Assembly: GCA_009760855.2 (NCBI GenBank)
Contig: WPIO01000012.1
Span: 7,851,001 to 7,915,000 of the forward strand
Direction: 5' to 3'
Length of the DNA stretch: 64,000 bases
Source: Cristatella mucedo
Lineage: Eukaryota; Bryozoa; Phylactolaemata; Cristatellidae
Shown here: positions 8,206 to 34,187 of the stretch, in pieces
Layout: every line of letters starts with the position of its first letter
Position numbering within the stretch: the first letter of the stretch is position 1
Notes under the pieces: generated by a model
What the model was told of the DNA's origin: nothing
What the model saw: only the letters and a program-made list of their open reading frames with translations
Databases searched by the model: none
Program-made: the position numbers and the translations under genes

Positions 8206-8511
8206 CTACTTCCTATCACTCTCGTCAATATCGCTGCCACGAACTTTCAAAATAAAATTATGTGCAGTGACGTCTCCATGCACATCTATGCATTCGAAGT
8301 GCTGCTGAACAGCACGTAGGTGCTCCTCTCTTGTCGCAGCAGGATCGATTTCGATATTAAACACTTGTGCATAGCGCCTTAGAGAAGTATCCGAAAGAAC
8401 CCTTAAGTCAGCTGCCATCATCGTTGGTTTCCTTGTTGCTGGTGTTCTCCTTCGGAGGCGCGCATCTTCGATGAAGGTTGCATGGTAACCGCAAATATGA
8501 TTGTGTGGAAC
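8206..8511 (-). CDS. SAP30: SAP30/SAP30L-like protein copy A, exon 2 (end of zinc module and Sin3-binding domain)
   Basis: This terminal exon has 101 codons plus the stop. The acceptor 'tttctatttaag' precedes a phase-0 start. It begins with the C-x2-H half of the zinc module ('ICGYH'), then a basic stretch ('EDARLRRRT'), then the Sin3-binding domain: 'TSLRRYAQVFNIE', a 'TREEHLRAVQQHF' helix and 'NFILKVRG'. These match the 'NTLRRYKRHFK', 'NKAQLVEIVGCHF' and 'YFIYSVK' blocks of animal SAP30 in order and spacing. In known animals this domain binds the PAH3 region of Sin3 in the histone deacetylase corepressor, in the nucleus. The aspartate of the usual C-D-x-H is glycine here. Identity rests on motif matching; expression is unknown. 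Confidence 0.85.
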   Translation of the reverse strand, partial: VPHNHICGYHATFIEDARLRRRTPATRKPTMMAADLRVLSDTSLRRYAQVFNIEIDPAATREEHLRAVQQHFECIDVHGDVTAHNFILKVRGSDIDESDRK

Positions 8512-11500
8512 CTTAAATAGAAAAGATTCATGAATACGATTGAATATCAGTCGGTCCAGCGAGATCTGGTAAAACAGTGCTGCAACAAAAAATTCAGACA
8601 GTTTAGAGTGATAAATTATTGTTTCCTTTCCATTCCGAGTCAGGCCTTTCTCTGTCTGTCTGTCGTTCTGTCTGTCTGTCTCTCTCTACCTCTATTTTTT
8701 CTTAAGCTTTTGTTCTTCGTTCTCTTAATCTCTTTTAGTCGGCTTCTCTCACTGCGTCTCTTCTAAAGTAAATAACAGATAAAAGTGTTATAGTCTCCAC
8801 CTTACGTTGATGCGTTTGTTGATATCCTTTTAGTATCTATTTGTTACTACATTATTATTCTGTCTGCAGCTGTCGTTGTCTAAACAGAAATGGCTATTAA
8901 GTCATACGGGAATTGAGTGACCTGATCTCCTAGCTAAGCCAAGAATAGCCCCTAGAATGAATGCTTACAAAAGTGTTGTCAATAGGAAGTTAACTGATGA
9001 AACTGTATTGCCAATCGAGGAGAGTCTACTAACCTCAGGTGGGTAGAGATACAAACAAAAACAGGGGCATGAGGACATTGCTTTCGTACTGGCCGGAGAG
9101 GCTCAAATTAAAAGGTTTTAGCAGACAGACCATCCATTTATAAAAGTGGTAACAGCTTTCTGGAATTTTCTACGTTTCTGGCTTCATGCAGTATCTTCTC
9201 TTTCGTATTGCTGTCTAGTGTAATCACAAACCTTCCAGGCCGGAAACGTGTAGCTGCAAAAGGCACAGTGCTAGACCGTGCAGGACCAGTGCTAAAGAGA
9301 TAATGTCAGTTTAGCATCAACACGGTCACAGCAGTCGTGATGCTGGATGACGGCATAGCAATGGCGAAATCACCAGCAAATATGCAACCAACAAAATATT
9401 CTAGCTGTGGTTCGATTATGCGACTAGCTCGGTGTCGTCTGCTCATCGGTATCAAAGCACTGCCGAATAGAACTGTCGCATTTCGAGAACTTGCACAATC
9501 ATGCAAGGACAATAAATAGATTAGCATTAGTAAATATTGGGTAGTATGAGGCTTGCTAGTGGTGGCATGTTCGAGCCAACTAAACAACGTAAGCTTCAGC
9601 TCATCAGCAGTGACAAAGTAGACAGTTGCCGGCGGGCACACGACTGTGTCTAAAGATTAGATTACGACTAGCTATGTACTTTATTGAAGACAAAAAGAAA
9701 TTGACCATATTTGTCAAGTGGAAAACTAAGATTGAGGGTTACAAGAAGTAAAGATGCGGCTATTGGCTTGATAGTTTTAAAATTACATCGACATTTTGAG
9801 ACAAGCTAGTGATGATTCGGGCTGGGAGGCCGCAAAAGGCGTCGAGGCTTTACGTCATATCTAAGGAATTGTAGATCAATGCACGCATCTTCAGGTTAGC
9901 TAGTCTGGGAAATTGGACTGCAGGTGCCAACAATCAGCTCGGGTATAAGTACATTTAGCAGCAACAGGACCCTAAGCATGCAGCATGGTCAGTAAATTTC
10001 ATAATAATCAGATGCATGGCAGATGCAATGGCCCAGCAAGTCACAAGATCTGCCCTCTCCAGAGCATTTATCCGACGACTTCAACAGGCACATAAGGCGG
10101 GATGAGCTGTTCGGTCAGCAGAAGGAGCTGCTAGACATTCACTTGTACTTTTTCTTTGACTTCTCCAAACCCTCTAGCTTGTCTAATTCTCTAACAACTT
10201 TTCTGGCTGTATCGATTAAATTCACACAGGGAATGCTGCAAACTTACAAAGATTTAATGACGACAAAAAACCCAACCACTTGTTAAGGATAGCCGAAATG
10301 GCGATTCAGAATATGGAAAACCTAACCCTCACAATCAGCTGCACCAGCATATCTCTGTTTGAATCTCCAAGTAACCTGGTGTCCGGTTCTAATAAGACGA
10401 CCACATCAAATGCATAGTCACGTGTGCCTACGTTTAGCCACACAACAGTGCCAGAGTTCGAGCTTGCTTAGACGGTACTACATCCAAATTAGTCCGTACA
10501 TAAATGAGCTCCCTTCTAGACTTCTGTAATGCTGCTGCTCGTGCTGCTACGTATGTAATCGTAGGCACGAAAGGGACTGGTCATGGTTGGTCTTGTAGGT
10601 TAGAGTGAGTAATTTGCTCTGTTTTGGTATCCATTTATCAACTGGCACCATCGCAGCTTTTTTGGCACAGGAGACAATTGAGTCTTTCTGATTTACCAAC
10701 CAATCTTGCATCTATATTCAGCACCAGCTACAAAAGTTTAAAGGCTGTTTTTTTAAGGTAGCCCAGCAAAATCTAAGTTACAGTAGTCCTGTTTAGTCAG
10801 AATAACGAAGCCAGTAAGGTCTTTCGACGGCCACCTGTAGGTGGTACTTAAATTGGACAGGGATCAAACAAGATGACTACCTCTGGTTATACTCTTCAGA
10901 AGAGCTCGTGCACATTGTAAATCAGAGGCTTACGGTCAGTGCAAAAATCCTACTGCTCGGTGCACGTTTCGTGAACTAAGCAGTTTTCACATTACATGCT
11001 TGATGTTCTCCCAGGGGGTGTAATCAGGCATGTACAATCAGGAACGTGTATTTGGTACAGAACTGGCATTTGCCACATCGTACCACTTAGCACCGACGTG
11101 CACTGGCTCTCAAACAAACAGTCCGTCGACTGCAAGGTTTTCTAGTCACTATTAGGTCCCTCCATTCTCAGGCTGCAACCTTTATGCTCCTAAACCCTGC
11201 AACTCACTACCGACGCACGTTACAACACCCCCTGACAAAAAACAGTAAAAAAGTACCCAACATTAGCAGATGAGTGTAATACAATATCTGCAAAGTGCTT
11301 TGAAAGTGAATCCCTTCTCTGAGAGCATTATATATAGATAGTATTATCATTATTAATATTGTTATTGCCTTCGCAAGATTTAAATTATTTTGACTTAGTC
11401 CTAACAATGACGGTACGAGCGACGATAACGCTGATAGGTCGTTTGCATAGCTTTCTTAGAGATCTAAATCTAGCTTAAGGCGTTTTACACTTCGATGCAT

Positions 11501-11974
11501 AATAGTCAACAAGCAATGGTTAGTGAAATGTATTGAAACAAGCTTGCAAAGGCAAAATGATACCATGCTTACACGAGCATGCTAAAAACATTTGAAGGAT
11601 CTAGAACCAGGGACGCACACACTATGCGAATGAACCGAGAGAATAATGCCTTCGAAGACATTCGTCGATGGTTCGCGACGAAGCGATAGGATGTGCGAGG
11701 GCTAAAAAGCTACATCGTCCAAGGCGCACTTGAGGGCGCTAGCAAATACTTTGCCACTCTGGATCGGGCTACAGGGTACGAATCGAGAGCTAGGCAGCCA
11801 ATTTAGTGGCAAATCAACGTCTAGACAAGCAGAGTACGGCAGGGTCCGAGCGTCCGGCGCCTCAAGGCATTCACACGATCAAATACGAGAAATGCACAGG
11901 CCTCAACGGGCAATTGCAATCCAATACCCTTTCCCTTCGCCACCCTTCCCGTTCGTTAGGCACGAATATCTTAC
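8512..11974 (-). other. Intron of SAP30 copy A
   Basis: This is a 3463-base intron with donor 'gtaaga' (11974-11969) and acceptor 'tttaag' (8517-8512). It holds a pyrimidine-rich tract (8640-8770), an unrecognised stretch 9306-9641 whose minus frame is also open in unit C (30373-30708), and a degenerate plus-strand LINE (10133-11370). The corresponding introns are 2454 bases in copy B and 4419 in copy C. Confidence 0.8.
10133..11370 (+). mobile_element. Degenerate LINE 3' half in SAP30 intron A
   Basis: Traces of LINE ORF2 run on the plus strand: the post-YADD region near 10130-10290, 'IRACLD'-type sequence near 10455-10520, and a 3' tail 'tgcaaagtgc..gaaagtgaatc..tctctgagagc' at about 11288-11330 followed by ATT-type repeats. 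About 370 bases (10560-10930) interrupt it. The same interruption is in unit C but not in unit B. Compared with unit C the reverse-transcriptase front is deleted at 10133. Confidence 0.6.
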
Positions 11975-12148
11975 TTGGTCATTGTATTTGAGCTCCAGGC
12001 CTCGCTTCTGGGTTGTCTGAATCGCTCTCGATCCATAAATTGCCTTGCCCACGCTCCGCCGGCAAACGACACCTGAATCAATCAGGCAACACAGTTTCCC
12101 ATCGCTCTCGACAGAAAACTGCTCCATACCTGCATGAAAAGAAGGCAT
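11975..12148 (-). CDS. SAP30: SAP30/SAP30L-like protein copy A, exon 1 (zinc module)
   Basis: This exon has 58 codons from ATG at 12148 to a phase-0 donor (caa|gtaaga). The start is chosen because it is the first in-frame ATG after an in-frame TAG at about 12256; the A at -3 fits a Kozak context. It carries 'CCLIDSGVVCRR', with the same Cys-Cys..Cys spacing as 'CCLIDDGERC' of vertebrate SAP30L. Next comes 'GKAIYGSRAIQTTQKRGLEL', corresponding to the 'GNASFSKRIQKSI..KLEL' block. Joined to exon 2 it gives a 159-residue protein, close to the roughly 180-220 residues usual for the family. No other upstream exon is seen. Confidence 0.85.
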
Positions 12149-12500
12149 CTTAATACTACCTAGTGAGTAACTTGCTAGAAGTGAGACAATTAGCAGAAGA
12201 GCAGCGGCGCTACCAATTACCGCATGCACTGCGAGTCTACAATACAGCTACAGCGAGCACATGAAACGAACATCATAGGTAGGGCCGTGTCAAGGTAGCA
12301 TTTCCCGACATCCTTGATATCATGCACATAATAAATACTAATAATTATAATCGATTATATAATATTAATAATAGTAATTATAATACGTTTGATTTTTGAG
12401 CCCTTAGAGGTATCTTTTTTCTTCTTTCAGCATTCCAAATTTGGGGTATGCAAATAGAGAGGTACATTTAATCTAAGGGAATTATTGTGCCATTGCCAAT
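12149..12500. other. Upstream region of SAP30 copy A
   Basis: This is the presumed promoter and 5' UTR side of the minus-strand gene. It is conserved with units B and C, including an AT-rich stretch (about 12325-12385) of TAATA repeats. I cannot point to a TATA box or a defined binding site. Confidence 0.35.
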
Positions 12501-12699
12501 CGCTTTAGATTCACCGGACGTGTGGATCCTCGATCATGTATTCTTCTTGCCCGCCAAGTAGCTGCAATCTTGTACTGCCTTCTGGAAAAACCAGTTTTAA
12601 GGTCAAGCTTATAGCTTTATATTGTCTCACACTTATCAACGAAGAATCAAAGCGCAGATTCTTCCTGCTTTGCCACAGACCAGCACGATTTGCCGCTGA

Positions 12700-13430
12700 T
12701 AAATTCCAAGCCCCGCACGGTGTCCACCCGAAAGTTCTACTATCAGTGACATGGCTACTGAGACTTCTGATTGCAAATGCAAGTTGGATGCTATGGCTAC
12801 AACTAAAAACAAAACCGCGGGCGATCAGAGACGTGTCGGCAACCATCGCAGCACTAGTTGATTTGCAGGAGGCATCACTGGGCCTACCAATGGCCCAGAC
12901 ATAGTATCTCCTGTGCCTGCCGGCCTGTTTGGAGAGTTTGGATGATTCCAATTACTCGCTCAAAGAAAGCGTACTAGAACTGCTTCGAGCTCACAATGAG
13001 ATCTCTCAACCTCCACTGGCTTTGCCTGTCGCATTGCAACACCTGGGAATGATGGGCCGTCAGGCAAAACAGATGCTAACTGCTAGGCAGTGGTCATCGC
13101 ATCTTGTAAGGTAGTAGAAAGCTTCGTGAATACGGTACAGCTGACAAACAGTCGAGTTCCAGAAGAAAACTCTTGCTACATGTTGACAATCACAGAGAGC
13201 AAAGGAAATGTTCAGGAGGACAAAAGTAAGCAGGACGGAGAGAGTGAAAAGAACAGGGCAGAGGACGAAAACAGTGAAGGTGGAGAGCGTGGCAAAACTA
13301 GAGACACAAACGCTTTGCTAGCTGAAATGTTCATGAAGAGAAGAACGCTTTCTCCGTGAAGCCGAAGATTTAAACGAAGCAATGCCAGCACTATCAGAAA
13401 AGAAAGACACATAATCTACTCTAATTTTCA
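12700..13430 (+). pseudogene. Unrecognised reading-frame remnants, unit A
   Basis: Plus-strand frames are similar in units A, B and C. One reads 'LKESVLELLRAHNEISQPP' and then 'MMGRQAKQMLTARQW' (about 12955-13100). Another is an acidic/basic stretch 'GERGKTRDTNALLAEMF' (13280-13330) followed at once by a stop, with 'LREAEDLNEAM' in the next frame. Related sequence is at 34960-35440 (unit C) and 21180-22165 (unit B, split by a LINE). The frame breaks look older than the duplications, so this is probably a relic of a gene or element that I cannot identify. Confidence 0.35.
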
Positions 13431-16007
13431 AAATGCTGACCCACAATAATATTGGCAACCATTAGGTTGACCAAACCTTGCTTTCAATGGTCATTTTCCA
13501 AGAAATTAAAACAGATAGTTTTGATAGTTGTAGAGAATCAAGCCTCTTTCGGAAGGATGTAGGTCCATTTGATAAATTAGGTAGTTTTGGTTTGAGGACA
13601 GCCTGGTTCACGAGGCAACTTGCTCATGCACACGAAGTTCGAAGGACCTCGCGGGCCTAGTCTCTCTTATTCTCACTCTTTCTCAAAAAAGTCTCTGTAG
13701 TTTACTGTTGTTTTCCCTTCAAACAAAACAGCCCTCATCACTGTCAATATTTCATTCCGTCAAAGGAAACAAAGAGGAGACTTTTCGAAATAAGTGGAAT
13801 AGACGCTGCTGCTGACGCACATGCCTCATTGAAGAAAATGATGGCAAGACGTTCTAAAGAGAGCTCTCAGCTACATCAAATTAGTGGTTTTGTAAAGCAT
13901 GTCACTGAGTTGTCACCTAGGCAGTCTTTGCCTGACTGATGAGGAAAACCTTTAAAGCATCTTGACCACAGCAGTAACAATCCAAGGCCAGCCTCTTATA
14001 TGTCTCCTAAGCCAAAACCTAAAATGAATGGCTATTTATACTTGCATTGACAGTGTAAGACAAGCTCCTCAGTGATTTACGGTTAAACCAGTGCTATAGA
14101 ATTCTATTAAATCCAGCTGCTGACTTGGCTTACAGCCGGCAGCCGCTCAAGGTCATCAGATATGTCGATGTTCATTTGGCCAAAAAACAGCACTAATCAG
14201 GACTCTGTTATGGCTTTTAGAGTAATCTATGAAAAAGATGGTGCAGCTAAACGAGGGTCTCATCGCGGATCAACTTTATCCGGCAAAATTCCTGGCAAGA
14301 TTGGTGGTCGCAATGCTAAGTCAGCAGCCATGTCTGGCTACTTATTTAGTGTCCTTAAGAGATTACTGTCCAATGATGGGAACGCTACTTTTGTAAACCA
14401 AGATAACCACAGCTTGAAGCTAGCAGGAACTCACGTCCCAAGAACAGAGGCTATTGCCATTATATATTTGAAACCGTAGATAACACCCACCATATCTTTT
14501 CATGGTCACCTCTGAGGTGAGAAGTAATGTACAAAGTGCTAGAGATGACCCCTAAACGTAATTGGGCAACAAGATGAAGTGCAAGAAGTACAGGCCGTGA
14601 AAGCTTACCGCGGTGGATAGAACAGAATTGTGATTTTTTTTGGAGCCACTGCCTGAGGACATAAATTGAACACTTGAAACAAGATTTGAAGCAGATTGAC
14701 ACACTACGTTGGGTTCGAAACTTTAAACTGTGTGGCTCTGTCGCCATTTAGGTGCAGCATCTTGACCAAGATTGACAGTGTTCAGAGAAGACTGCACGAG
14801 TCTTCCGCTTAAAGACGGTCGGCGAAAAAACCTTTAGCTGCTCAGGTCTCTGCCTGTTGAACTCGATTGCATGATTCTTACGCGACGACAGCTTCTCTCC
14901 TGCTGCCGACTATGGCCCATCCTTTTCAGCGGTTCCGAGCTGCTACTTTCGTGCTACTCACTATCTCAACTGCTCGTTTGACTCTCGTAGGATTCCCATT
15001 TTCTCTTTGCTGCGTGAGATCAAGTAGGTTAGCCACCGAATGCGTACCGAAAGCCGTTGAGGCAGTGAATGAGTTATTCAAAACTCTCTAAACCTATCAC
15101 CCACTTAGTCTGTGTGGCTTTGTGGAGGTAAAGACGGTGATACGTTACGCTACATCACACCTAACGATGAAATTTATATACGCCTCTTGAGAACTCCACT
15201 CCCTTGAAATTCAGTTGTCAACACTCTGAGAACCCTTGTGCCAAGTACCGCCACCAGGTGCCAAATTTAGACGTGAAACGTTGGAGTGTTAGTTCGACAG
15301 GAACTCCTGTCGAAGGACACACGTTTAGTCCGCTGTCAGACCTCCAGGTCTAGTTTAGTTCCTTGTTGGATGCTGAGCAGCTATTAAAGGCTTGGGCCGG
15401 GCCAGGTTTGGTGAGCCATGTCTAGATCTTTGAGGCTAACCAGACGTTGATGGATGAGAGCTTTACAATGAAATATGTGACTTTATAAGACTTTTGGCTA
15501 CACCTAATGATTCGGCTACGAAGACTACGCTGGAACTTACTTGTCTTTCATAGTCAGTTATGGAGAAGATTCGTTCACTGAATTGAGAGTTGTCTTGCGA
15601 ATTCGTATCACTATTGCTGTATCAATGACCAAGTGTGACCATTACTTTAGCAAGCTGAAGATAATCAGCTTGTATCTTATAACATCGCCGGACAAGTTGA
15701 CTCTCAGACCTGGCTCGAAGTTGAACGTAAAGAAAAACATATAACACTGTGAACTTTCAAGCTGTAGTAGACCAGTTTACAGTGTTAAAGAAAATTTGAT
15801 TACGTCCAAGACCAGGCAAATACATTCAAGTTAAAGATGGCATTGCTTCATTATACATTTAATACAGCTGATTAAAATGTTCTCGAATTATTTGCCACCT
15901 TGCTTGGTGTTGCATTTCTTCTCCGGCGGAGCTACTTTGTAGCAACCTTGGAAGAGGTCCATTTGTAGGTTTGTTCGGGGGTGCAGAAAGGTCGCACTGT
16001 CCCCACT
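13431..16007. other. Rest of unit A, no gene recognised
   Basis: The sequence is conserved with 35450-37176 of unit C and in part with 22190-22780 of unit B. Short frames near 13800-13940 (with 'QISGFVKHVTEL') and 14162-14479 are open in unit A, but unit C carries a stop or frameshift. 14760-15580 is present in unit A only and has no recognisable content. Confidence 0.45.
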
Positions 16008-17259
16008 GGGATGCTGTCCTGCGAAAGCCCGTTTCTTTGATAGTAGTTGTATTGTATGGGCACACCTGAGTGAGTAAAATCTTAGACAAAGAAAATTTCG
16101 GAATAAAACAGTATTTTGGTCAAAGCAACGATTCAGTTAGAAAGGCTCATTTTATGAGCTACAGTTACCGTTTCTTAAACGTCAGTCGGTCGCTCTCATC
16201 CTGTCTGTTGCAGCTTGTCATAGGAAAACACTCAAAGAACCGGCTATAACATTTCATTAATTGGAAGTAATTGCAACCGCTCTTGAAGTTTGCAGTTCTA
16301 TACCTTTATACAATGAACTTATACTTTTATGAAAGTTTGCAATGTAGCCTGCCCATCAGTTGGTAAGCCAATTGACTTCAAATTTGGTTGACTATGACGA
16401 TATTTTATGGGGTCACCATAAAAGACCCAAACTCATTAGAAGAACGAGAAAATCTTGCTTAATTTAACCTCTCATGCAATTTCCGTAACTATAGAAAGCG
16501 AAAACGACGAGGTATGTGTTATAGAGGATAGTTTTGTAAAGCCCACTTGCAGCCCAAGCAGGTTTCGGTACGCATTCGGTTGCCAACAGACTTCATCTCG
16601 CCCAACGAAGATAAATTGGGAAGCAAGGCAAAGTTAGAAGAGCAGTTGAGGTAGTAAGTAGCGTATGACATACCTTCTAGTATAACTTGAATTTTCAAAT
16701 ATATAGCTGAGTTGTAGGCTTGTACGATTCAGTCCGCAGCTTTAGGGACTTTCTGGTGATTGTACTCACGCTCGTTATTAATAAGAAAGCAAAGCTAGTC
16801 GAATATGTAATCCCAGACGCATCTTTACCGGGGCGTATAAATGTTTTTCATATTTGAAGAAAAATTGTGATATTAAAAAAGAAACGAAAACTACAATTTC
16901 GGGCTGCTATAGGTCACTCCAAAATAAATTGAATGAAATGTAACTTGGGTAAAATAGCAGAGCTACTGGATATTTCACTTGACGATATCTTGACTTTATT
17001 TTTTACATAGTATACAAAACATGCCACGTGCAGGTAGAAATAAAGTCTGTTTTATGCTTATATTGATACCAATATCACCCAAGAATGTAACTCCCCTTAG
17101 ACAAAAGCTCTATTTATAAATATTCACATACCTTGACGAAGCAACCGAAGCAGTAACTACCAAAGTGTCATTTAGAAAGTTTTCTAGGCGACACCTGATG
17201 CCAGCGTAAAAAATGTCAATGAATAAGTAGCAGCACCTTCAAGCGTGTTTCTTCCATTC

Positions 17260-17265
17260 TTTATT
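17260..17265 (-). promoter_or_regulatory. Polyadenylation signal AATAAA, SAP30 copy B
   Basis: AATAAA on the minus strand, 177 bases beyond the stop of exon 2, is at the corresponding place to the signals of copies A and C. Confidence 0.55.
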
Positions 17266-17441
17266 AATATCACCATATCTCGTCACTGCGAAGACCTTAC
17301 TTTTGTCGGAGGCAAAACTTCTGGGAGCAGGTAATCTCTATCGATATTTACAGTGCTGACTGCTCCATAGTTGCATGACTTCTCTCTTGCCACATCCGGT
17401 GTCATGGCCAGTTTTCAAATGCCAGTCTTTGAAGCTACTTC

Positions 17442-17741
17442 CTAATCACTCTCATCAATGTCGCGGCCACGGACTTTAAGAATAAAATTTTGCACCGTCA
17501 CGTCACCGCGAACTTCTATTTTAGGGAAGTGCTCAGCAATGCATCGTAGCTGCTCCTCCCTGGTCGCAGCAGGATTGATTGCGACGTTAAACTTTTCTGC
17601 ATAGCGCCTGAGAGCATTATTCGAAAGGCAGGATAAATCAGCTGCCGTCATCATTGTTGTTCTTGTTGCTGATGTTGTCCTTCGGAGGCGCGCATCTTCG
17701 ATGAAGGTCGCATGATAATCACAAACATGATTGTGGCGCAC
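17442..17741 (-). CDS. SAP30: SAP30/SAP30L-like protein copy B, exon 2
   Basis: This terminal exon has 99 codons plus the stop, after the acceptor 'tctatttaag'. It starts with GTG CGC CAC, giving 'VRHNHVCDYHATFIEDARL', a near match to 'VRHLYICDFHKNFIQSVR' of vertebrate SAP30L. It keeps the full C-D-x-H of the zinc module. The Sin3-binding domain follows ('NALRRYAEKFNV', 'TREEQLRCIAEHF', 'VQNFILKVRG'). Of the three copies it is the closest to the family consensus and has all zinc ligands, so it is the best candidate for a working gene. It differs from A and C at many residues, yet the frame is intact. Confidence 0.88.
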   Translation of the reverse strand: MRHNHVCDYHATFIEDARLRRTTSATRTTMMTAADLSCLSNNALRRYAEKFNVAINPAATREEQLRCIAEHFPKIEVRGDVTVQNFILKVRGRDIDESD

Positions 17742-17874
17742 CTTAAATAGAGAATATTAATGAATAAAATTGAATATTGGTTGGTCCAGCAACATCAAGC
17801 CAAATGGTGCACAAATAAAAAACAGAACTGCCGTGGGCCAACCTCTTACATTAAAAAATCTTAGCCGATTCAGC

Positions 17875-18110
17875 TGACTCATTTGCATAGCAGCAGAATG
17901 GCATTGCCGGCTATCATCACTGCTCTCATTTGCATTAAGCGACATCCCAACTGCAGGATTTAAACCATCGACATAAATCGTGGGTTGCCAGCACCTTAAC
18001 TTCCGTGCTACCACAGCTGAGTGGATACGACAGCAATTCGTGTTTGCTTTGTAGTGTAAATTACTTGCACTTGTTCTGCACAAATACAAGGTCTGGCATC
18101 TTGGAAAACC
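17875..18110 (-). mobile_element. Old tRNA-derived SINE, family 2
   Basis: On the minus strand there is an A-box-like 'tggtagcacggaagttaagg' and a B-box-like 'gatggtttaaatcctgc', then 'agttgggatgtcgc', matching the order of the better copies at 41098-41266 and 60739-60907. A diverged counterpart sits at 31330-31590 in unit C. Unit A has lost it in the deletion at 10133. Confidence 0.55.
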
Positions 18111-18254
18111 TTCCTACCCAAGCGAGTAGCAGCCACAGCACCCGTAGCCTTCCTATTTTGTTAATCCACTAAAGAAAGCGATTGTGGATCGAGAGGATTT
18201 AAACAGCTTCCACCATGTCCATCTTTTGCCTTTCCTATGAAAAACTCTAGAAAG

Positions 18255-19575
18255 AGGTGAGACAACTAAACGCTTATATTGAAACCTTAGACCTAGCAAG
18301 TAAGTTGATGTCTGAGCTAATTCAATTACTCGGCAGTGTCAGCATTACCGCCTCAATGAAGACAATGGCCATGTGTCATGCGTCATTGGTCGTACATCTT
18401 GAGATAGCATTTGATACTAGTGATACCAAGTCATTCTTGATCACCTCGTATCTCAAGAGGGCCACGCTGGCACGGCACTGCAATGACTCAGGGCCTATCT
18501 CAGTGGGAGACTCGGATGTTTGATGTAAACAGACAAAGAAAATCCGAAGAACTACTGAAGTTTAAGCAACCACGTAGCTCTGGACTTGGTCAGCTTCCCT
18601 TCAAAGTTCATACTTTCCCACTTCCTGATGTAATTGCCAAGCACAATCTTAACCTTTATTTGTATGCAGGTGACATTCACTTGTAACCTTATTTGTATGC
18701 AGGTGACATTCACTTGTACTTTTGCTTTGATGTCTCTTAACAGTTAAGCATTTCTAGTTCTCTCAAAACTTTTCTGGCTGTATTGATTACATCCACACAT
18801 GGAAGGCAGCCAATTCTTATGAATTTTAAAAAGAAAAACCCAACTGCTTGTTATGGATAAACCAAGTGGGAATTCAGAAATTGGAAAACCTAACGCTCAC
18901 AATCACCTCAGGCAGCGTATCTCCTGTTGAATCTTCAAGTAATCTGGTGTCCCGTTCCAAAGTGACATTTCATTAGACTACACATGAACAACACATCTGA
19001 ATCAGTCAAATCAGAATACTTTCAACTACCTTACATTGCCAGAATTCGGGCTTGCTTAGACAAGTGTACAACATCTTAATTGATTCGTGCATTTCTAACC
19101 TTCCTTCTAGACTTCTGTGACAAGCTGGTTGCTCGTGCTTACACGTATGCAATCAGTGGCTTATAGTCGGTGTGCAAATTCTGATGCTTGGTAGGCCTAT
19201 CGTGAACTGAGCAGTTTCCGCATCGCATGCTTGATGGTCTCTCCGTGTGCAATAAGGCACGTACAATCAGACGCGTGTAGTTGGTGAAGAACTGTAATTT
19301 GCCACATCAAACCACTTAGCAACGACCTGTGCTGGCGTTCAATCACATAGTCTATCGCCCGAAAGGTACGTCAGTCACTATGTATTCGCTGCATTCTTTA
19401 CGCTCCTAAACCCTGCAACTCACTACCAACTCAGGTCACAACAATCCCTGACAAGACAACATTTAAAAAGTACTAATCGTTTGGTGATCCGTTTAGTGCA
19501 ATACATGTAAAGTGCCTAGAAAGTACACAGATTCTCTGAGGGCGCTATATATTGATTTTATTGTTATTATTAATA
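18255..19575 (+). mobile_element. Degenerate LINE in SAP30 intron B
   Basis: Decayed reverse transcriptase is readable on the plus strand: 'AFDTSDTKSFLITSYLKRA' (LINE 'AFDTVDH..LL..L' block), and 'LNLYLYAGDIHLYF' in place of 'YHLYADDTQLY' (catalytic YADD changed to YAGD), then 'IARIRACLDKCTTS' near 19035. The 3' tail ends near 19560 with ATT-type repeats. A 34-base piece is tandemly duplicated at 18651-18717. Confidence 0.65.
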
Positions 19576-20195
19576 TAGCACTCGGAAGACTTTTCTGTGA
19601 CTCATTTAAGATGGTCCTAACAGAGAAGGTAAGAGACACGATACAGCTTATGACGTTAGGTCATTTGCACAGCTTTCTTAGCGATCTAAATCTCCATTTA
19701 GGAGCTTTACATTTCGATGCATGAAAGTCAACAACTAAGGGTTAGTGAGATCTAGTGAAGCAAGCATGCACACGGAAAACGGTATCATGCTTACGCGAGC
19801 ATGCCAAAAGCATTAGCACGATCTTCCAGCTGGGGAGCGCACACTCTGCAAACGAACAGCGATTAGAGAATAGTGTCTTAGCAGACATCCGTCGTCGGTG
19901 TGCGGCGAAGCGATGGGAGTTGCAACGGCTGAAAAGCTCCACCGTCCAAGGCGCACTTGAGGGCACACGAAAATGCTTATCCACTCGTGAGCGTGCTACA
20001 GCTCACGAATTGAACCAGACAAGCCAAGTAGCCGTCCAGCGGCATATGAGCCTCTAAACAAGCCGAGAACGACTGGTTCTCTAGCATCAAGGCATGCGAT
20101 CCAATACGAGAAATGTACGGGCTACCACTGGCCACTGCAACTCAATTGCTTTTCCCTTCACCACCCTGCGCGTTCGTTGGGCACTTATGTCTTAC

Positions 20196-20369
20196 TTTCT
20201 CGTCCTGCTTGAGATCCAGACCTCGAGTCTGCTTTGTCTGAATCGCTCTAGGTCCATAAATTGCCTTGCCTGCGCTCCGCCGGCAAGTCACGCCGGAATC
20301 GATCAGGCAACACCGTTTGTCGTCGCTTTCGACCGAAAAGTGCTCCATACCTGCATGACAAGAAGGCAT
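20196..20369 (-). CDS. SAP30: SAP30/SAP30L-like protein copy B, exon 1 (zinc module)
   Basis: This exon has 58 codons from ATG at 20369 to the phase-0 donor (aaa|gtaaga), the same length as in copies A and C. It contains 'CCLIDSGVTCRRSAGKAIYG' and ends 'LDLKQDEK', which joins to 'VRHNHVCDYH' of exon 2 exactly as 'LELDKSVRHLYICDFH' runs in vertebrate SAP30L. That continuity across the predicted splice is strong evidence for the intron. The spliced protein has 157 residues. The N-terminus before the first cysteine pair is short (19 residues). Confidence 0.88.
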
Positions 20370-20849
20370 CTTATTACTACCTAATAAGTAACTTGCTAAC
20401 GGCGAGACATTAAGAATAAAGCAGCTGGCGCTACCATTTACCGAAAGTAAGACCAGTCTACAATAAAGCTACAGCGAGCACATGAACGAACATCCCAGGT
20501 AGGGCCGTATTAAGGTAGCGTTTTCCGACAAACCTCGACATAAAGATCATAGTAATAATAGTAATATTAATAATAAAAAAAATAATAATATATTTTAATA
20601 TATTTAATATAGCGTCATCAGTGGTCTCTTTTTAATCTGCTTCAGGCACTTTACATTTACTAAATGCAAACGGAGAGGGACATTCAATCTAAGGGATTAG
20701 CAGTCCCGCAGACAATCGCTTTAGATACACAGAACGGGCGGATCCTCGATGATGGGTTCTTGTTGCCTGCTAATTAGCTGCAATCTTGTACTGTTATCTG
20801 GAAAACCCAGTTTAAAGTCAAGCGTTTAGTCTATTATTGTCGCAAACTC

Positions 20850-21460: not shown

Positions 21461-21461
21461 A

Positions 21462-22018: not shown

Positions 22019-22799
22019 AGGAAAAAATAACAGCCGAGAGCGTGGCAAAACTGAAGAAACGAATGCTCTGCTAGCTGATAGCTTCATGAGAAGGAGAGCA
22101 CTTGCTCCGTGAAGTCGAAGATTTGAACCAAGTAGGGCTAGCACTACCAAAAAAAAGATACAGTTTCTTCTCTAGTGTTCCAAGTGGTGATCCTGAATGA
22201 TATTCGTTACCTATAGTTTGACCAAACCTCTGTTTCTCATGCTATATCGCAATATATTCAAACTGATAGTTCTTTGAGGATAAGGCCTCTTTCGGAACAA
22301 CGAAGGTTCATTTGATGGAACAGGTAGTCAAGCCGTGAGCACACCCTGGTTCAAGAGGCAGCTTGCTCATGGGCAATAGGTTAGCAGGACCTGGCTGGCC
22401 TACTCTCCCTCAAAAAATTCATTATATTGTTTCTTTTGTTTTCTCTTCCCTACGTTCAACCAAAATTTGCGATTTTCACTTGCATTGGGAAATAGATTTA
22501 GCCTGCCGAGAAAACCTGAAAAACTAGTCGGCCACGAAAACCACCCATCTCACCGTCAACTTTCAAGCTGTAGTAGACCATCTTGCTATGTTTCAGAAAA
22601 GTTCATGACCAGACCAATACACTTAAGGTAAAGCTTCATTGCTGTCTTAACCATTAAATACCGTTGATTAAACGCTTTCAAATCCTTTTGCCTGCTTCCT
22701 TGGTATTTGCATTTCTCCTGCGGTGGAGCTACTTTTTATAGACCTCACAAGAGGGGATGGGATGCCATTTTTAGGTTTGTGCCCTGTACGACTCACTCG

Positions 22800-23205
22800 A
22801 CTAGCATTAATCATGCGTTCACAGTTAGAGCTACATTAGAAGTTATTACGTAGAATAATAATCACAAACTTATTAACGCATTTGCATAGCACTCTCAGAG
22901 AACTCTGTCACTTTCTAGGCACCCAAAAGTTGCTGCAAAGGCACCTGTCACTTTCTAGGCACCCAAAAGTTGCTGCAAAGGCACCAACGTTGAATGGCTA
23001 GTGTAGTGGTAGCATGCTCAATGTCATCAACATGATTAGAGAAAATAGGCAAAGCGTCAACATGCAAAAATAATGGCGGCGAGCATAGTGTAAGCACGGA
23101 TGTGCACTCAAATGACTTGTGACAGAGACTCACTAAATGCCGTAGCCAATACGTGTGTTTTCCGAGCTCTTAAAAGAAATGACAGCTGCTAACGTTTGGA
23201 TGGAA
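22800..23205 (-). mobile_element. Degenerate LINE 3' tail, shared flank copy 2
   Basis: This is nearly the same as 275-665. It differs by a perfect 40-base tandem duplication (22905-22944 and 22945-22984) covering the hairpin arm and the 'ttgctgcaaagg' block. Its continuity with 275-665 breaks where the LTR element begins. Confidence 0.7.
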
Positions 23206-23214
23206 AACCTCGAA

Positions 23215-25930: not shown

Positions 25931-25949
25931 CTATTGAAATGGAAGATTG

Positions 25950-26213: not shown

Positions 26214-26262
<49 letters not shown>

Positions 26263-26469: not shown

Positions 26470-26690
26470 AATGCTCGCTCAGGGCCTGTCAACACGCAAT
26501 GACAGGTGTCGGCTGGCTAACTGTTGTCGTAGGACTGGACTGCCAGAAAACGTTGATCCTATTTTCTACCACTCCGGCGATAGCATCTCTGTGAAATGAT
26601 AAGCAAAAAAGTGAGCCGATTCTTCTTCCGGTTCAGAACCTCGCCCGAGTGCTCAGCCTTGGCACTCGGTTAGGGGTGACATGTGACCAC
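26470..26690. repeat. Block repeated from 1193-1410
   Basis: This is a near-identical copy of 1193-1410, directly followed here by the flank of unit C. The 1411-5590 sequence of the first copy is absent. Confidence 0.75.
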
Positions 26691-27892
26691 ATAACGCTCT
26701 CTCTGGGCACACAAAAGTTTATTTTTTGAGTTTAACTTGGGGCAATGCTTGGCTATTAAGGGCAATCGCTCGACACCATACAGCAATCTATGATCATCTG
26801 ATAACATTACAAGCAAAGAGGTGTGAGAAGATCCAATGTTATTAGCTTACTACAGTGTGCTGTATTAAAAGTGCATTCGAATTCTTTCCACTGTTGTCGA
26901 TCCCACATTAGAGGGCGATGCCCAACAATCGAAAGCGACGGCCTGAGAAAATACGGAAATCTGTAACGGTGCAGTAAAAATACGGTGCAGTAAAAAGACT
27001 CGTCGATACTGGGTGACGCAGCGATTTAGATTTCTCGTTCATCTATACTCAATTATTTGATCCACTCAGGAAGGTTCACCCTTGTAAGATGCAGCTGGCT
27101 TCCATCTATCCGTTGAGCTTCCACTTTGCGTGGTCTCGGATATTGCTTCAGCATTTGCCTTCTCAGCCGGCAGTTCATTGCTTCATCTCCAACTACCGTT
27201 AATTACTAAAGCCTTCACTTCCACCCTAGGTGGAGATACTGATGACGCTAATACCGGAAGCTCTTGGGCTGCCTTATGGATGGGGCCAGCAGCATCTGGC
27301 ATGCAGGCGCTGAATGATTGTACTTGCCATACTCGATGGTTGCCACCTGATCGTGAGCTCGTCCTTCCTTCAAAACTTGGAAGACTCAGTTGCACACCCG
27401 AATACATAAATAAATAACTATAATTCATTTGCATAACACTCAAGAGAGATTAATATCTATACGGGGGCTTCACACATGCCACAGGGCTAGCATGGTTCAA
27501 CCTCTCATGTCACCACCAGCTCTTTCTCGTTCATTCTCTCTCCCCAAGTCTCCCAGTCACTTTCTCTCTCAGTTTCTCTGGATCTATTTTTTTGCTAGTT
27601 TATAGTGCTGTCTTTCCATTGTGCATATCTTCGATAAAGGACAATCGTTTCCCACTCCATCATCATCGTAATCGCTATGTGCACTAGGAATCTAGTCAAT
27701 GTTCCAGCCATGGAGTTTGCTTAAAAATTTAAAGACCATGCACAGACTAAGCTGGCGAAAAGCTTCTTGTACACATAAACGTTGTTCTATGATCAGTTTC
27801 AGGTTCAATTACGAAATTAAAGTCATTGACATAGCACCTCACAGCTTCATAAGGTAGAAAATGCATGTTCCGAAACGATTTAGTTTTCAGTT
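26690..27892. repeat. Upstream flank of unit C (copy of 5590-6809)
   Basis: It is close to 5590-6809 apart from small indels, including a 16-base duplication 'tacggtgcagtaaaaa' near 26965-26995 and a shorter G run in the truncated SINE tail (27405-27490). No gene is recognised. Confidence 0.85.
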
Positions 27893-29154
27893 AGGGATGC
27901 TGCCCTTTGAAAGTCTGTTCCTTCGATCGTATGAGCACACCTAAGTGAGTGGAATCTTACATAGAGAAACATTAGGAATTACACAGAATTTCTGTGAGTG
28001 CAACGATTCACTTAGGGAAGGCTGATTTTACGAGCTAGGGTTACTGTTATTTTCAGATCAGCCGGTCGCTCTCATCCTGTCAGTTGTAACTTATCATAGT
28101 ATAATGTGCAATTTATCAGCTATAACATTTCAACGATTGCAAATAATTGCAAAAACGCCACGCCTAACGTTTGCAGTTCTTCAACTTTATAATAAAAACC
28201 TATGCCTCTACGAAAGTTTTTGGTATAGCCTGCCGTCACTGGCTATGCTAATAGCCTTGAAATTTTTTTTTAGTAGGATGGTAATTTATGGGGTCGCTAT
28301 GGAAGACCCTGATTCATTGCAGAACAAGAGCATCTAGCGAAACGTAACGTATCATTCAACGTCCATTACTCCACATTGCATAAAAGACAACGTGGGTGTT
28401 AGGGAGGAAAGTTTTGCATAGCAAACTCGCAGCCCAAGCAGGTTTCGGTGCACATTCGGTAGCTAACAGACTTTATTTTGCACAGCAAAGATAAAGTGAG
28501 AATCAAGGTAAAGTCAGGAGAGAAGTTGAGGTAACGAGTAGCCTATAAGATGCGCCTGACTTGAGATTTCTCTCAAATCATGTAACTGGCTCGTAGCCCT
28601 GTTATATGCCATCCTCAATTTTGGGGACACGAATCTGTGTGTTGACTTTTGCGTGTTTTGGTGGTTCAATGCTAAATAGTGACATTAATAAAACGGATCC
28701 AAAGTCAAAACTTAAGGCTGCAATAGATCACTTCAAAATAAAGTGAATAACTTATAACTTGGGTAAAAAGAGTAGAGCCACGTGATACTTTACTGCATTT
28801 ATATCTTGAACGTATTATTACATCGTGTGCAAGTGGCACAACTTCATATACAAGCAGCATTATAGTTTATTGTATAAGTGACTTGATATCAAAATACCAC
28901 AAGCATTGAACTATACTTGAAAAGAATAACTCTATTTATAAATATTCTCATATTTATGCAAATCACTGTATCAAGATCTACACAAATTATCATTTAAAAA
29001 GTTTTCTAGGCTACAGCTGGTGCAGGCGTAGGGAACGGTCGAATGACTAAGCAGCAGCAACTCGAATAATATTGGTCTTCGTTCGTTTCGCCTTGAGGTG
29101 CCTGCTTTTACTACAGCGAGTTCCTGCCGACATCCTTGGGCGTTTCTTCCCTTC

Positions 29155-29160
29155 TTTATT
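29155..29160 (-). promoter_or_regulatory. Polyadenylation signal AATAAA, SAP30 copy C
   Basis: AATAAA on the minus strand, 129 bases past the stop codon, is at the same distance as in copy A. Confidence 0.6.
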
Positions 29161-29288
29161 TTTCTCACCGTATCTCACGTGGCCGACCACACTTGTGTTG
29201 GTGGCATGACTTGCTGTTGAGTCGTTGCACGACTCTTCTCTTGCCACGTTCAGTGTCGTGGCCAGTTGTCAACTTCCGGTTGTTGTAG

Positions 29289-29594
29289 CTAGTTCCTATC
29301 ACTCTCATTACTATCGTGGCCACAAACTTTCAAAATAAAATTGTGTGCAGTGACGTCTCCATGCACATCTATGCATTCGAAGTGCTGCTGAACAGCACGT
29401 AGGTGCTCCTCTCTTGTCGCAGCAGGATCGATTTCGATATTAAACACTTGTGCATAGCGCCTTAGAGAAGTATCCGAAAGACACTTCAAGTCAGCTGCCA
29501 TCATCGTTGGTTTCCTTGTTAGTGATGTTGTCCTTCGGAGGCGCGCATCTTCGATGAAGGTTGCATAATAACCGCAAATAAGATTATGTGGAAC
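29289..29594 (-). CDS. SAP30: SAP30/SAP30L-like protein copy C, exon 2 (zinc ligand lost)
   Basis: This terminal exon has 101 codons plus the stop after the acceptor 'tttctatttaag'. The Sin3-binding domain is the same as copy A over 'TSLRRYAQVFNIE..TREEHLRAVQQHF..HNFILKV'. The zinc module ends 'ICGYY': the codon for the ligand histidine is TAT instead of CAT in copy A, so a required metal ligand is replaced by tyrosine. Other changes cluster at the very C-terminus (CGHDSNESDRN). The frame is open, so either it tolerates this loss (only Sin3 binding kept) or it is an early pseudogene. Confidence 0.8.
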   Translation of the reverse strand, partial: VPHNLICGYYATFIEDARLRRTTSLTRKPTMMAADLKCLSDTSLRRYAQVFNIEIDPAATREEHLRAVQQHFECIDVHGDVTAHNFILKVCGHDSNESDRN

Positions 29595-31329
29595 CTTAAA
29601 TAGAAAAGATTCATGATTACGATTAATTATCAGTCGGTCCAGCGAGATCTGGTAAAACAGTGCTGCAACAAAAAATTTAAACAGTTTCGAGTAATAAATT
29701 ATTGTTTCCTTTCCATTCCGAGTCAGGCTTTTCTCTGTCTGTCTGTCGTTCTGTCTGTCTCTTTCTACCTCTATTTTTTCTTAAGCTTTTGTTCTTCGCT
29801 CCCTTAATCTCTTTTACTCGGCCTCTCTCACTGCCTCTATTCTAAAGTAAATAACAGATACAAGTTTCATAGTCTCCACATTATGTTGATGCGTTTTCTG
29901 ATATCCTTTAGGTATTTATTTGTTACTAAATTCTTATTCTATCTGCAGCTATCAATGTCCAAACAGAAATTGCTATTAAGTCATACGGGAATTGAGTGAC
30001 CTGATCTCCTAGCTAAGCCAAGAATCAAGGCTTACAATAATGGGGTCGATAGGAAGTTACCTGATGAAACTGTATTGCCAATCGAGGAGATTCTACTAAC
30101 CTCAGGTGGGAAGAGATACAAACAAAGACAGGGGCATGAGGACATTGCTTTCGTACTGGCCGGAGAGGCTCAAATTAAACGGTTTTAGCAGACAGACCAT
30201 CCATTTATAAAAGTGGTAACAGCTTTCTGGAATTTCCTACGTTTCTGGCTTCATGCAGCGTCTGCTCTTTCATACTGCTGTCTAGTGTAATCACAAACCT
30301 TCCAGGCCGGAAACTTGTAGCAGCAAAAGGCTCAGTGCAAGACCGTGAAGGACCAGTGCTAAAGAGATAATGTCAGTTTAGCATCAACACGGTCATAGCA
30401 GTCGTGAGGCTGGATGACGGCATGGCAATGGCGAATTCACCAGCAAATATGCAATCAACAAAATATTCTAGCTGTGGTTCGATTGTGCGACCAGCTAGGT
30501 GTCGTCTGCTCATCGGTATCAAAGCACTGCCGAATAGATTTGCCGCGTTTCGAGAACTTGCAAAATCATGCAAGGACAATAAATAGATTAGCATTAGTAA
30601 ATATTGGGTAGTATGAGGCTTGCTAGTGGTGGCATGTTCGAGCCAACTAAACAACAAAAGCTTCAGCTCATCAGCAGTGACAAAGCAGACAGTGACCGGC
30701 GGGCCCACGACTATGTCTAAGGGTTAGATTACGACTAGCTACGTACTTTATTAAAGACAAAAAAAATTGGCCATATTTGTCAAGTGGAAAACTAAGATTG
30801 AGGGTTTTAACAAGTAAAGATGGGGCTATTGGCTTGATTGTTTTAAAGTTACATCGACATTTTGAGACGAGCTAGTGATGGTTCGGGCTGCATGGCCACA
30901 AAAGGCGTCGAGGCTTTACCTCATATCTAAGGTATTGTAGATCAATGCACGCATCTTCAGGTTAGCTTGTCTGGGAAATTGGACTGCAGGTGCCAACAAT
31001 CAGCTCGGGTATAAGTACATTTAGCAGCAACATGACCCTAAATATGCAGCATGGTCAGTAAATTTCATAATAATCAGATGCATGGCAGATGCAATGGCCC
31101 AGCAAGTCACGAGATCTGTCCCTTTAGAGCATTTATCCGACGACTTCAACAGGCACATGAGGCGGGATGAGCTGTTCGGTCAGCAGAAGGAGCTGCTAGT
31201 TTCAATAAAACTCACTTCTCTGTGGAACGCTTAAGCAGAAACGTCTACACAGAAGGAAACTTGTGCCATTCATCCATAGGTGGACCGAAATAGAATTCAC
31301 ATAGAATCGCAGTGGGCCGACCACTTTAA

Positions 31330-31590
31330 TAAAAAAAATACAATCATAGCCGATTCCACCACCTCATCGTGTAACAGCACAATAGCATTGTCGCTTATCA
31401 TCACAGCTGTAATTTTCAATCAGCGACCGCCCAACTGCAGGATTCAAACCAACGACCCTTATCGTGAGTTGCCGGCACTTTGTCTCCTGTACTATCACTG
31501 CCGAGTACGTGCAAAGAATATTTGTGTTTGTTGGAACGGTGCAAATTATTTGCACTTGCTCTGCACAAATACGTAGCATCTGATATCTTG
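31330..31590 (-). mobile_element. Old tRNA-derived SINE, family 2
   Basis: The minus strand carries a B-box-like 'ggtttgaatcctgc', then 'agttgggcggtcgc' and 'gtgatgataagcgac', the family-2 order. It corresponds to 17875-18110 of unit B. Confidence 0.55.
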
Positions 31591-31749
31591 GACAACGTCC
31601 TTTCTACCTACCTAAACGAGTAGCAGCCACAGCACCCGTAGCCATCCTATTTTGTTTACGGACCAATTAAAAAGGTAATATAGACCAAGAGAATCTAAGC
31701 GACTTTCACCCAGGCCATCCTGTTGCCGTTCCTATCAAAAACAATAGCA

Positions 31750-33405
31750 AGAAGTGAACCACCTGAACTCCTGATATTGGGACCATAAACCTAGCAAGTA
31801 AGTTACAATCTGAGCTTGGACCCAATTACTTCAGTGTCAGCATTACCTCGGGAATGACGGTTTGGATAAAGTCTTTTGTCAGGATTCATCTTCCGACATC
31901 ATTCGATACCATTGATAACAATTTATTCTCGAGCACCTTGTATCTCAAGAGGGCCTCACTAAGACGGTATTGCAATGGTTCACGGCCTACCTCAGTGGGA
32001 GACTCCAGATGCTTGACGTAAGCGAGCAAAGAGCATCCAAAGTGCCACTGAAGTCTAGGCAACCTCCTGCTCTGTGCATGGTTCAATTCTTTTCAAAGTT
32101 CGTATTTTCCCGCTTGCTGATGTCATCGTCAAGAACAACATTGGCCTTCACTTGTATGCAGGTGACATTCACTCGTACTTTTTCTTTGACATCTCCAAAC
32201 CCTCTATCATGTCTAATTCTCCAACAACTTTTCTGTCTGTATCGATCGAATTCACACAGGGAACGCTGGAAACTTACATAGATTTAACGACGACAGAAAA
32301 CCCAATCACTTGTTATGGATAACCCAAATGGCGATTCAGAAATTGGAAAACCTAACCCTCACAATCAGCTGCGCCAGCATATCTCTAGTTGAATCTCCAA
32401 GTAATCTGGTGTCCTGTTCCAAAATGACCTTTATTAAGACGACCACATCAAATGCATACTCACGTTTGCTGACTTTTAGCCTCATAACAGTGCCAGAATT
32501 CGAGCTTGCTTAGACAGTACTACATTCAAATTGGTCCGTACATAAATGAGCTCCCTTCTAGACTTCTGTAAGGCATTTGCTCGTGCTGCTACGTATATAA
32601 TCGTAGGCATGAAAGGGCCTGGTCATGGTTGGTCTTGTAGGTTAGAGTGAGTAATTTGCTCTGTTTTGGCATCCGTTTATCAACTGGCACCGTCGCAGCT
32701 TTTTTGGCACAGGAGACAATTGAGTCTTTATGATTTACTAACCAAACTTCCATCTATATTCAGCACCAGCTGCAAAAGCTTAACGTTTTTTTTTTGGTAG
32801 ATCAGCAAAATCTAAGTTACAGTAGTCCTGTTTAGTCAGGATAACGAAGCCAGTAAGGTCTTTCGACCGCCACCTGTAGGCTGTCCTTAAATTGGACAGG
32901 GATCAAACAAGATGACTACCTCTGGTTACACTCTTCAGAAGAGCTCGTGCACATTGTAAATCAGAGGCTTACGGTCAGTGCAAAAATCCTACTGCTCGGT
33001 GCACGTTTCGTGAACTAAGCAGATTCCAAATTACATGCTTGATGTTCTCCCAGGGGGTGTAATCAGGCATGTACAATCAGGAACGTGTATTTGGTACAGA
33101 ACTGGCATTTGCCACATCGTACCACTTAGCACCGATGTGCACTGGCTCTCAAACAAACAGTCCGTCGACTGCAAGGTTTTCTAGTCCCTATTAGGTCCCT
33201 CCATTCTCAGGCTCTAACCTTTATGCTCCTAAACCTTGCACCTCACTACCGACGCACGTTACAACACCCCCTGACAAGAAAACAGTAAAAAAGTACCCAA
33301 CATTACTAGATGAGTGTAATACAATATCTGCAAAGTGCCTAGAAAGTGAATCTCTTCTCTGAGAGCATTATATATAGATAGTATTATCATTATTATTATT
33401 GTTAT
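31750..33405 (+). mobile_element. Degenerate LINE in SAP30 intron C
   Basis: 'LQWFTAYLSGRLQMLDVSEQ' (31965-32025) and 'LHLYAGDIHSYFFF' (near 32150) are reverse-transcriptase blocks, the latter again with YAGD in place of YADD. The 370-base interruption shared with unit A is at about 32600-32950. The 3' tail with hairpin arms and ATT repeats is at 33330-33405. The shared YADD-to-YAGD change shows the LINE was already dead before the units were copied. Confidence 0.65.
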
Positions 33406-34013
33406 TGCCTTCTGAAGATGTGAATGATTTTAACACAGTCCAAACAATGACGGTACGAGCGACGATAACGCTGGTAGGTCGTTTGCATAGCTTTCTTAGA
33501 GATCTAAATCTAGCTTAAGGCGTTTTACACTTCGATGCATAATAGTCAACAAGCAATGGTTAGTGAAATGTACGGAACTAAGCTTGCAAAGGCAAAAGGA
33601 TACCATGCTTACACGAGCATGCTAAAAGCATTGGAAATATCTTCCACCAGGGAGGCACACACTATGCGAATGAACCGAGAGAATAATGCATTCGGAGACA
33701 TTCGTCGATGGTTCGCGACGAAGCGATAGGATGTGCAAGGGCAAAAAAGCTTCACCGTTCAAGGCGCACTTGAGGGCTCTAGCAAATACTTTGAGACTCA
33801 TGTGCGGGCTACAGGGCACAAATCGAGAGCTAGGCAGCCAATTTAGTGGCGTACCAACGTCTAGACAGCAGAGTACGGCAGGGTCCGACCGTCCGGCGCC
33901 TCAAGGTATTCACACGATCAAGTACGAAAAATGCACAGGCCACAACGGGCAACTGCAATCCAATACCCTTTCCCGTTGCCACCCTTCCCCTTCGTTAGTT
34001 ACGAATATCGTAC

Positions 34014-34187
34014 TTGGTCATTGTATTTGAGCTCCAGGCCTCGCTTCTGGGTTGTCTGAATCGCTCTCGATCCATAAATTGCCTTGCCCACGCTCCGCCG
34101 GCAAACGACACCTGAATCAATCAGGCAACACTGTTTCCCATCGCTCTCAAAAGAAAACTGCTCCATACCTGCATGAAAAGAAGGCAT
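34014..34187 (-). CDS. SAP30: SAP30/SAP30L-like protein copy C, exon 1
   Basis: This exon has 58 codons from ATG at 34187 to the donor (caa|gtacga), the same length and phase as copies A and B. 'CCLIDSGVVCRRSVGKAIYG' is identical to copy A. Substitutions against copy A are few (for example FES for VES and KQC for KLC). The donor differs at the fourth intron base. The spliced product would have 159 residues. Confidence 0.8.

Follow-up and report, generated by a model that had tools for sequence, protein, structure and literature searches.

A stretch of 64,000 nucleotides from the bryozoan Cristatella mucedo (positions 7851001-7915000 of the 8.56-Mb contig WPIO01000012.1, here C33, in a genome of 572 Mb and 688 contigs; hereafter the window) holds three members of a local cluster of ten open, divergent SAP30-like genes. 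These copies belong to the SAP30 family, and the acidic region that is conserved in animal SAP30 is missing from them. We give a probability of about 0.6 to the reading, drawn from sequence comparisons, that the cluster is a lineage-specific birth-and-death family encoding Sin3 adaptors with altered targeting.

A ten-copy SAP30 cluster

A search of the genome with the Pfam profile PF13867 (SAP30_Sin3_bdg) gave 12 matches, 11 of them on C33 within 7.815-8.047 Mb (the ten copies and a canonical gene, K0) and one, which is partial, on contig C453. We modelled the copies, numbered K1 to K10, from the window and from pieces of C33:7771001-8085000 (314 kb); they occupy ~207 kb (7.815-8.022 Mb), with K1-K6 and K9-K10 on the minus strand and K7-K8 on the plus strand. 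An earlier interpretation of the window made from its letters alone (the sequence-only reading) had proposed a local cluster of three such genes. The three divergent genes stand, as copies A (K4), B (K5) and C (K6), but the cluster is far larger than was supposed. The duplicated units around A, B and C (Table 1) and the number of copies support its further proposal, a lineage-specific SAP30 expansion by segmental duplication.

In each of the ten copies the frame is open and the intron, in phase 0 and 1.7-4.7 kb long, is bordered by GT and AG, and a processed (retro) origin was rejected because every copy retains the intron. All ten spliced products also exceed the Pfam cut-offs for both domains, with 43.5-60.1 bits for zf-SAP30 (PF13866; cut-off 25) and 31.5-42.1 bits for SAP30_Sin3_bdg (cut-off 22.2), which excludes a chance resemblance to SAP30. 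The zinc-module pattern C-x8-C-x35-C-x2-H is found in nine of the copies, the exception being copy C.

For the window genes, the predicted coordinates, minus strand, phase-0 introns and junctions (11975/8511, 20196/17741 and 34014/29594) were all right, with GT/AG borders throughout, and last exons of 101, 99 and 101 codons agree with the 99-101 claimed. The donors of copies A and B read GTAAGA, as in the other family members, and that of copy C, GTACGA, is the odd one out among the ten; the acceptor ends in TTTAAG in all three. Counted from the originally proposed start, the spliced proteins of A, B and C have 159, 157 and 159 residues, and in each a zinc module is followed by a Sin3-binding domain, the SAP30 order that had been predicted, with both profiles above their gathering scores (zf-SAP30 at 52.3, 57.0 and 45.0 bits and SAP30_Sin3_bdg at 37.7, 37.8 and 36.5 bits, respectively). 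The zinc ligands are complete in A and B, as claimed for all three copies, but the module of copy C ends in C-x2-Y, tyrosine having replaced the histidine. Among entries of the Protein Data Bank, copy B is related to the zinc fingers of SAP30L/SAP30 (2n1u, 8.8e-11; 2kdp, 3.8e-9).

The first exon had been given 58 codons. Its end and junction hold, but its start codon is probably wrong. The proposed ATG is present at its codon in six of the ten copies; in K7 this codon is ACG, with an in-frame ATG directly before it, in K8 the ATG is out of frame, and K9 and K10 have ACG, so that three copies (K8, K9 and K10) have no in-frame ATG at this place. Moreover, this ATG sits within a pyrimidine-rich tract that ends in GCAG. 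Seven codons downstream, a start reading MEQ or MEH is present in ten of ten copies and leaves a first exon of 51 codons; because it is kept in every copy and the proposed ATG in only six, MEQ/MEH is the likelier true start. The border CAG/GTATGGAGCA behind the pyrimidine-rich tract is likewise kept in all ten, and a splice acceptor may lie directly before MEQ/MEH. In an alignment of the 600 bases upstream in nine copies (all but K3; six inspected), we found no conserved upstream coding exon; the same alignment contains a partly conserved block along with the CAG/GTATGGAGCA border, and a non-coding upstream exon is possible.

The canonical gene and the parts that the copies lack

K0 lies at 8.045 Mb of C33 on the plus strand, where exons 8044985-8045245 and 8046245-8046640 encode 218 residues. 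It scores 107.5 bits for zf-SAP30 and 77.1 bits for SAP30_Sin3_bdg, and it matches SAP30L (1.7e-22), SAP30 (1.8e-19) and the SAP30 Sin3-binding domain (1.2e-18). An intact canonical SAP30 elsewhere in the genome, which the sequence-only reading had listed as one half of a joint argument against itself, is therefore present. The single coding intron of K0 is in phase 0 and placed as in the copies, and an undivided last exon is therefore not special to the cluster. K0 and the copies share 23-28% of their residues, and we infer that K0 or its ancestor was the parent of the cluster. The match on C453 (1709635-1713862) is a more intron-rich SAP30-like gene fragment, in which the Sin3-binding domain is divided between two exon-like pieces whose borders resemble splice sites; the 20 kb examined there yielded no zinc half.

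The copies differ from K0 chiefly in acidic and N-terminal elements. First, only 12 residues (2-4 acidic) precede the first zinc cysteine in the copies, compared to 48 (19 acidic) in K0. Second, the linker, with limits as cut by our analysis script, has 22 residues in K0, seven of them acidic, and 13 residues with at most one acidic in each of the ten copies, all of which thereby lack the central acidic region for histone contact of the animal SAP30 type. The 12 residues after the zinc module contain 4-5 basic residues in nine copies and five in K0; K1 has two. Finally, in an octamer that we take to be the equivalent of the nucleolar localization signal (NoLS) of SAP30L, K0 has four basic residues (KRYKAHYK) and each copy between 0 and 3.

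The copies thus share with animal SAP30/SAP30L the succession of zf-SAP30 and SAP30_Sin3_bdg and, in nine of ten cases each, the zinc spacing and what may be the basic stretch. They depart from these proteins in being ten divergent copies beside a canonical gene, and in their short N-terminus, acid-poor linker and fewer basic residues in the putative NoLS octamer. In animals, the zinc spacing, acidic region and NoLS are described as conserved, the zinc ligands strictly so, and the accompanying table has at most two SAP30-family entries per animal (Viiri et al., 2009, PMC2711940). The same paper reports four exons for SAP30 and for SAP30L, compared to two coding exons in the cluster copies. The tetrapod SAP30-SAP30L pair, as described there, offers a parallel in that, after a segmental duplication, one copy evolved faster and association with the nuclear matrix weakened (PMC2711940); unlike that pair, the Cristatella genes form a local cluster of ten with ongoing gain and loss, and their acidic elements are lost. 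Lineage-specific reuse of the zf-SAP30 and SAP30 domains is also seen in the THAP-C gene of Holothuria glaberrima (PMC13228809), but that gene carries a THAP domain, and in the ten copies neither THAP nor any other additional Pfam domain was found. Judged by title and abstract opening, searches of the open-licence literature turned up no paper on clustered SAP30 genes, the Holothuria gene being the nearest case. A search of viral contigs for relatives of copy B yielded five pattern-matching stretches, none of which was confirmed.

Selection, turnover and possible roles at Sin3

In a codon tree (ultrafast bootstrap values of 71-100 at the main nodes and 58-59 within A, C and K2), K0 is outermost, followed by K1, then K9/K10, then K7 with K3/B, separate from A, C and K2 with K8. 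We compared five main lineages (K1; K9 and K10; K7; K3 and B; K2, A, C and K8) by Nei-Gojobori counts over 150-152 codons with Fisher tests. Silent changes per site exceeded amino-acid changes in 37 of 37 between-lineage pairs (p from 1.9e-12 to 0.0023), although these pairs are not independent. The ratio of amino-acid to silent changes per site (dN/dS) was 0.15-0.49 in the 36 pairs with estimable dS, which is saturated for K1 (at least 2.1); examples are A-B at 0.35 (p 9e-6), K7-K3 at 0.26 (p 4.8e-7), K9-K8 at 0.27 (p 1.5e-8) and K9-B at 0.49. In simulations of neutral evolution that took their substitution and indel rates from the adjoining non-coding DNA, none of 5000 copies was open and indel-free at A-B divergence. 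Because between-lineage dN/dS is low and no neutral run survived at this scale, we conclude from the sequences that the older lineages are under purifying selection.

Several results weigh against a role for every copy. Six of eight within-lineage pairs do not differ significantly from neutral at the 0.05 level, namely A-C (0.80, p 0.61), K2-C (1.13, p 1), K2-A (0.69, p 0.41), K3-B (0.59, p 0.54), K9-K10 (0.43, p 0.09) and C-K8 (0.56, p 0.08); K2-K8 (0.38, p 0.004) and A-K8 (0.46, p 0.04) are the pairs significantly below 1. Since the A-C split, with changes polarised by B over 157 codons and bases counted by codon type as residue-differing or silent, amino-acid and silent changes number 6 and 1 in A and 10 and 2 in C, with three unassigned; the zinc histidine is among the residues altered in C. 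At A-C divergence, 6.9% of the simulated copies remain open, and therefore a young open copy need not be functional. An exon-by-exon genome search with zf-SAP30 recovered the first exons of six copies and missed those of K2, A, C and K8, and copy B matches the solved SAP30 Sin3-binding domain (2ld7) only weakly (E 0.006). For the youngest copies, and C above all, function is putative and the sequence is compatible with neutral drift, from which it is not distinguishable; copy C, which lacks the zinc histidine and has no measurable constraint since the A-C split, is probably failing.

Remnants of further copies bear on the same question. When exons from five copies were scanned against the 314-kb region on both strands, scores of at least 22 marked 25 last-exon places, 15 of them outside the ten genes, and 11 first-exon places, one of them outside the genes; in the reversed-sequence control, none of 2090 windows was marked by the last exon and one of 2090 by the first. 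None of the 15 extra last-exon remnants is a PF13867 match in the genome search. Of these 15, frames were read for the three inside the window, and one additional remnant has two in-frame TAA codons. In the extra first exon, two zinc-module cysteines are gone and the GT donor is now GC. So many remnants show that copies die often, and together with the young pairs that do not differ significantly from neutral, the damaged zinc module of copy C and the intact canonical gene close by, they would fit a reading in which all ten copies are pseudogenes or duplication passengers without a role and K0 does the work. We regard this as unlikely. The main lineages are under selection, which argues against dead genes: the silent excess extends to every between-lineage pair, no neutral run stayed open at A-B scale, and all four zinc ligands are retained in nine of ten copies, compared to the loss of two cysteines in the one broken first exon.

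The family grew by tandem and segmental duplication near the canonical SAP30. If its members do act as Sin3 adaptors, the following may be proposed. Each predicted protein would join a short zinc module to a Sin3-interaction domain. SAP30 binds PAH3 of Sin3A constitutively, 1:1 and at about 10 nM (PMC6295471), and in the yeast Rpd3L complex at least three Sap30 helices engage PAH3 of one of two Sin3 copies (PMC10224958). A genome search with PF08295 (Sin3_corepress) found one Sin3 match, a lower bound from a search made exon by exon; with only this one match, the copies, if they bind, must share the PAH3 site with K0, and they may occupy it in place of the canonical protein. The resulting Sin3/histone deacetylase complexes would keep the DNA contact of the zinc module, and contacts with histones, nucleolus and nuclear matrix would be reduced. 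Such complexes may be aimed elsewhere, or the copies may serve certain tissues.

The same features could instead describe competitors or decoys that displace canonical SAP30 from PAH3 and dampen the complex, for example in the germ line under genetic conflict. Loss of the acidic elements with retention of the binding domain would suit such proteins, as would the turnover of copies, the single Sin3 match (again a lower bound) and the binding of one SAP30 per Sin3A at PAH3 (PMC6295471). Yet nine of the ten copies appear to retain the basic region beside the zinc module, suggesting that DNA binding still matters, and we consider pure decoys somewhat less probable even than pseudogenes. It is very improbable that some copies are assembly artefacts, with two haplotypes placed in series, for although K3 and B show three counted changes over 450 coding bases, with units that are 96.6% identical (K9-K10 units, 94.8%), the non-coding differences among A, B and C run from 7% to 26%, all within one contig, and the adjoining K2-A unit is just 92.9% identical.

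Returning to a birth-and-death family of Sin3 adaptors, its debris extends beyond C33. A protein search with the last exon of K10 found at least 28 places, of which at least 17 are on contig C497 and at least 11 on C33, where they comprise the ten copies plus a relic. Fifteen of these 17 lie at C497:1348066-1374165, all of them interrupted in frame by one or two TAG codons, and the spacing from one to the next is 0.93-1.04 kb in 10 of 14 cases. A 1.5-kb sample of the array contains a 1034-base direct repeat (98.7% identity over 466 bases). Within the cluster, the best DNA match of this unit is to a relic near 7939516-7939693, which ranks above genes K2 and C. The 1034-base tandem unit holds a broken SAP30-like last exon, and SAP30 debris thus now resides in a satellite-like array. 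Another place, C497:1200882-1201049, is stop-free across the matched part of the K10 last exon.

A more complete account is tentative and, taken as a whole, rather doubtful: ten slimmed SAP30 variants would compete for one Sin3 and so retarget or restrain deacetylation, probably in a tissue-specific manner or in conflict, and dead copies would have seeded the 1.03-kb repeat. Ten open, stripped-down paralogues from constrained lineages, beside a single canonical SAP30 and apparently a single Sin3, amount to a natural experiment that sets Sin3-binding against targeting parts, and with the cluster one can test whether core subunits of chromatin complexes turn into arms-race genes.

Relics, repeats and neighbouring features

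Relics in the window (Table 1) were judged by alignment score against the maximum of 200 dinucleotide shuffles per relic. Two candidate first-exon relics were dropped as weak, one at window 580-643, which scored 23 against a shuffle maximum of 17, and one at 23144-23206, which scored 16, below a shuffle maximum of 20.

Table 1. SAP30-like genes, duplicated units and relics, in window positions
Feature	Positions	Strand	Remarks
Copy A (K4), first coding exon as first proposed	11975-12148	-	family-supported start 12127, MEQ, 51 codons
Copy A, intron	8512-11974	-	3463 bases, phase 0, GTAAGA...TTTAAG
Copy A, last exon and stop	8206-8511	-	101 codons; AATAAA 128 bases beyond stop
Copy B (K5), first coding exon	20196-20369	-	family-supported start 20348, MEH
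Copy B, intron	17742-20195	-	2454 bases, phase 0
Copy B, last exon and stop	17442-17741	-	99 codons; AATAAA or ATTAAA 176 bases beyond stop
Copy C (K6), first coding exon	34014-34187	-	family-supported start 34166
Copy C, intron	29595-34013	-	4419 bases, phase 0
Copy C, last exon and stop	29289-29594	-	101 codons; CGYY, tyrosine in place of zinc histidine
Unit with copy A	5604-16009		~10 kb; pairs with copy C unit (26686-37180), 87-93% identity in pieces
Unit with copy B, older	16008-22780		~69-78% identity to A and C units, in pieces
Unit with copy C	26686-37180		duplicate of copy A unit
Broken last-exon relic including acceptor side, downstream of copy A	6608-6926	-	score 42, shuffle maximum 19.5; stops in all frames in 6608-6880
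Partial last-exon relic, downstream of copy B	16010-16120	-	score 31, shuffle maximum 18; too short to call broken
Broken last-exon relic that duplicates relic 6608-6926, downstream of copy C	27736-28006	-	score 41, shuffle maximum 17; stops in all frames in 27736-27960
Broken last-exon relic with some flanking intron	38676-39008	+	score 43, shuffle maximum 17; stops in all frames in 38708-39009

A Pfam scan of 10 of the 41 stop-to-stop open reading frames of at least 110 residues in the window gave one integrase above cut-off and no match tied to SAP30. The integrase core belongs to retroelement remains at 52447-53702 on the minus strand, where an RNase H-like match falls below cut-off. An interspersed repeat family with 74-95% identity occurs at 21453-22013, 42093-42997, 53683-53934, 59407-61337 and 62833-63389. 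Its open reading frames, three of which were scanned without a Pfam match, look like what we presume to be 3' ends of long interspersed nuclear elements. A transfer RNA for threonine (anticodon GGT, 91 bases) is predicted at 60825-60915 on the minus strand and overlaps a repeat in common with 41092-41271; it is possibly a tRNA-derived repeat. An Rfam scan gave no match at gathering scores. Just outside the cluster, C33:7796904-7798325 is a short tandem array with a 141-base step and 99% identity. Elsewhere in the assembly, mitochondrial COX1 lies at 15615-16955 of the 21,008-base contig C688, and a 700-base sample of it, judged by its translations, fits the invertebrate mitochondrial code (table 5) better than tables 2, 4, 9, 13 or 14.

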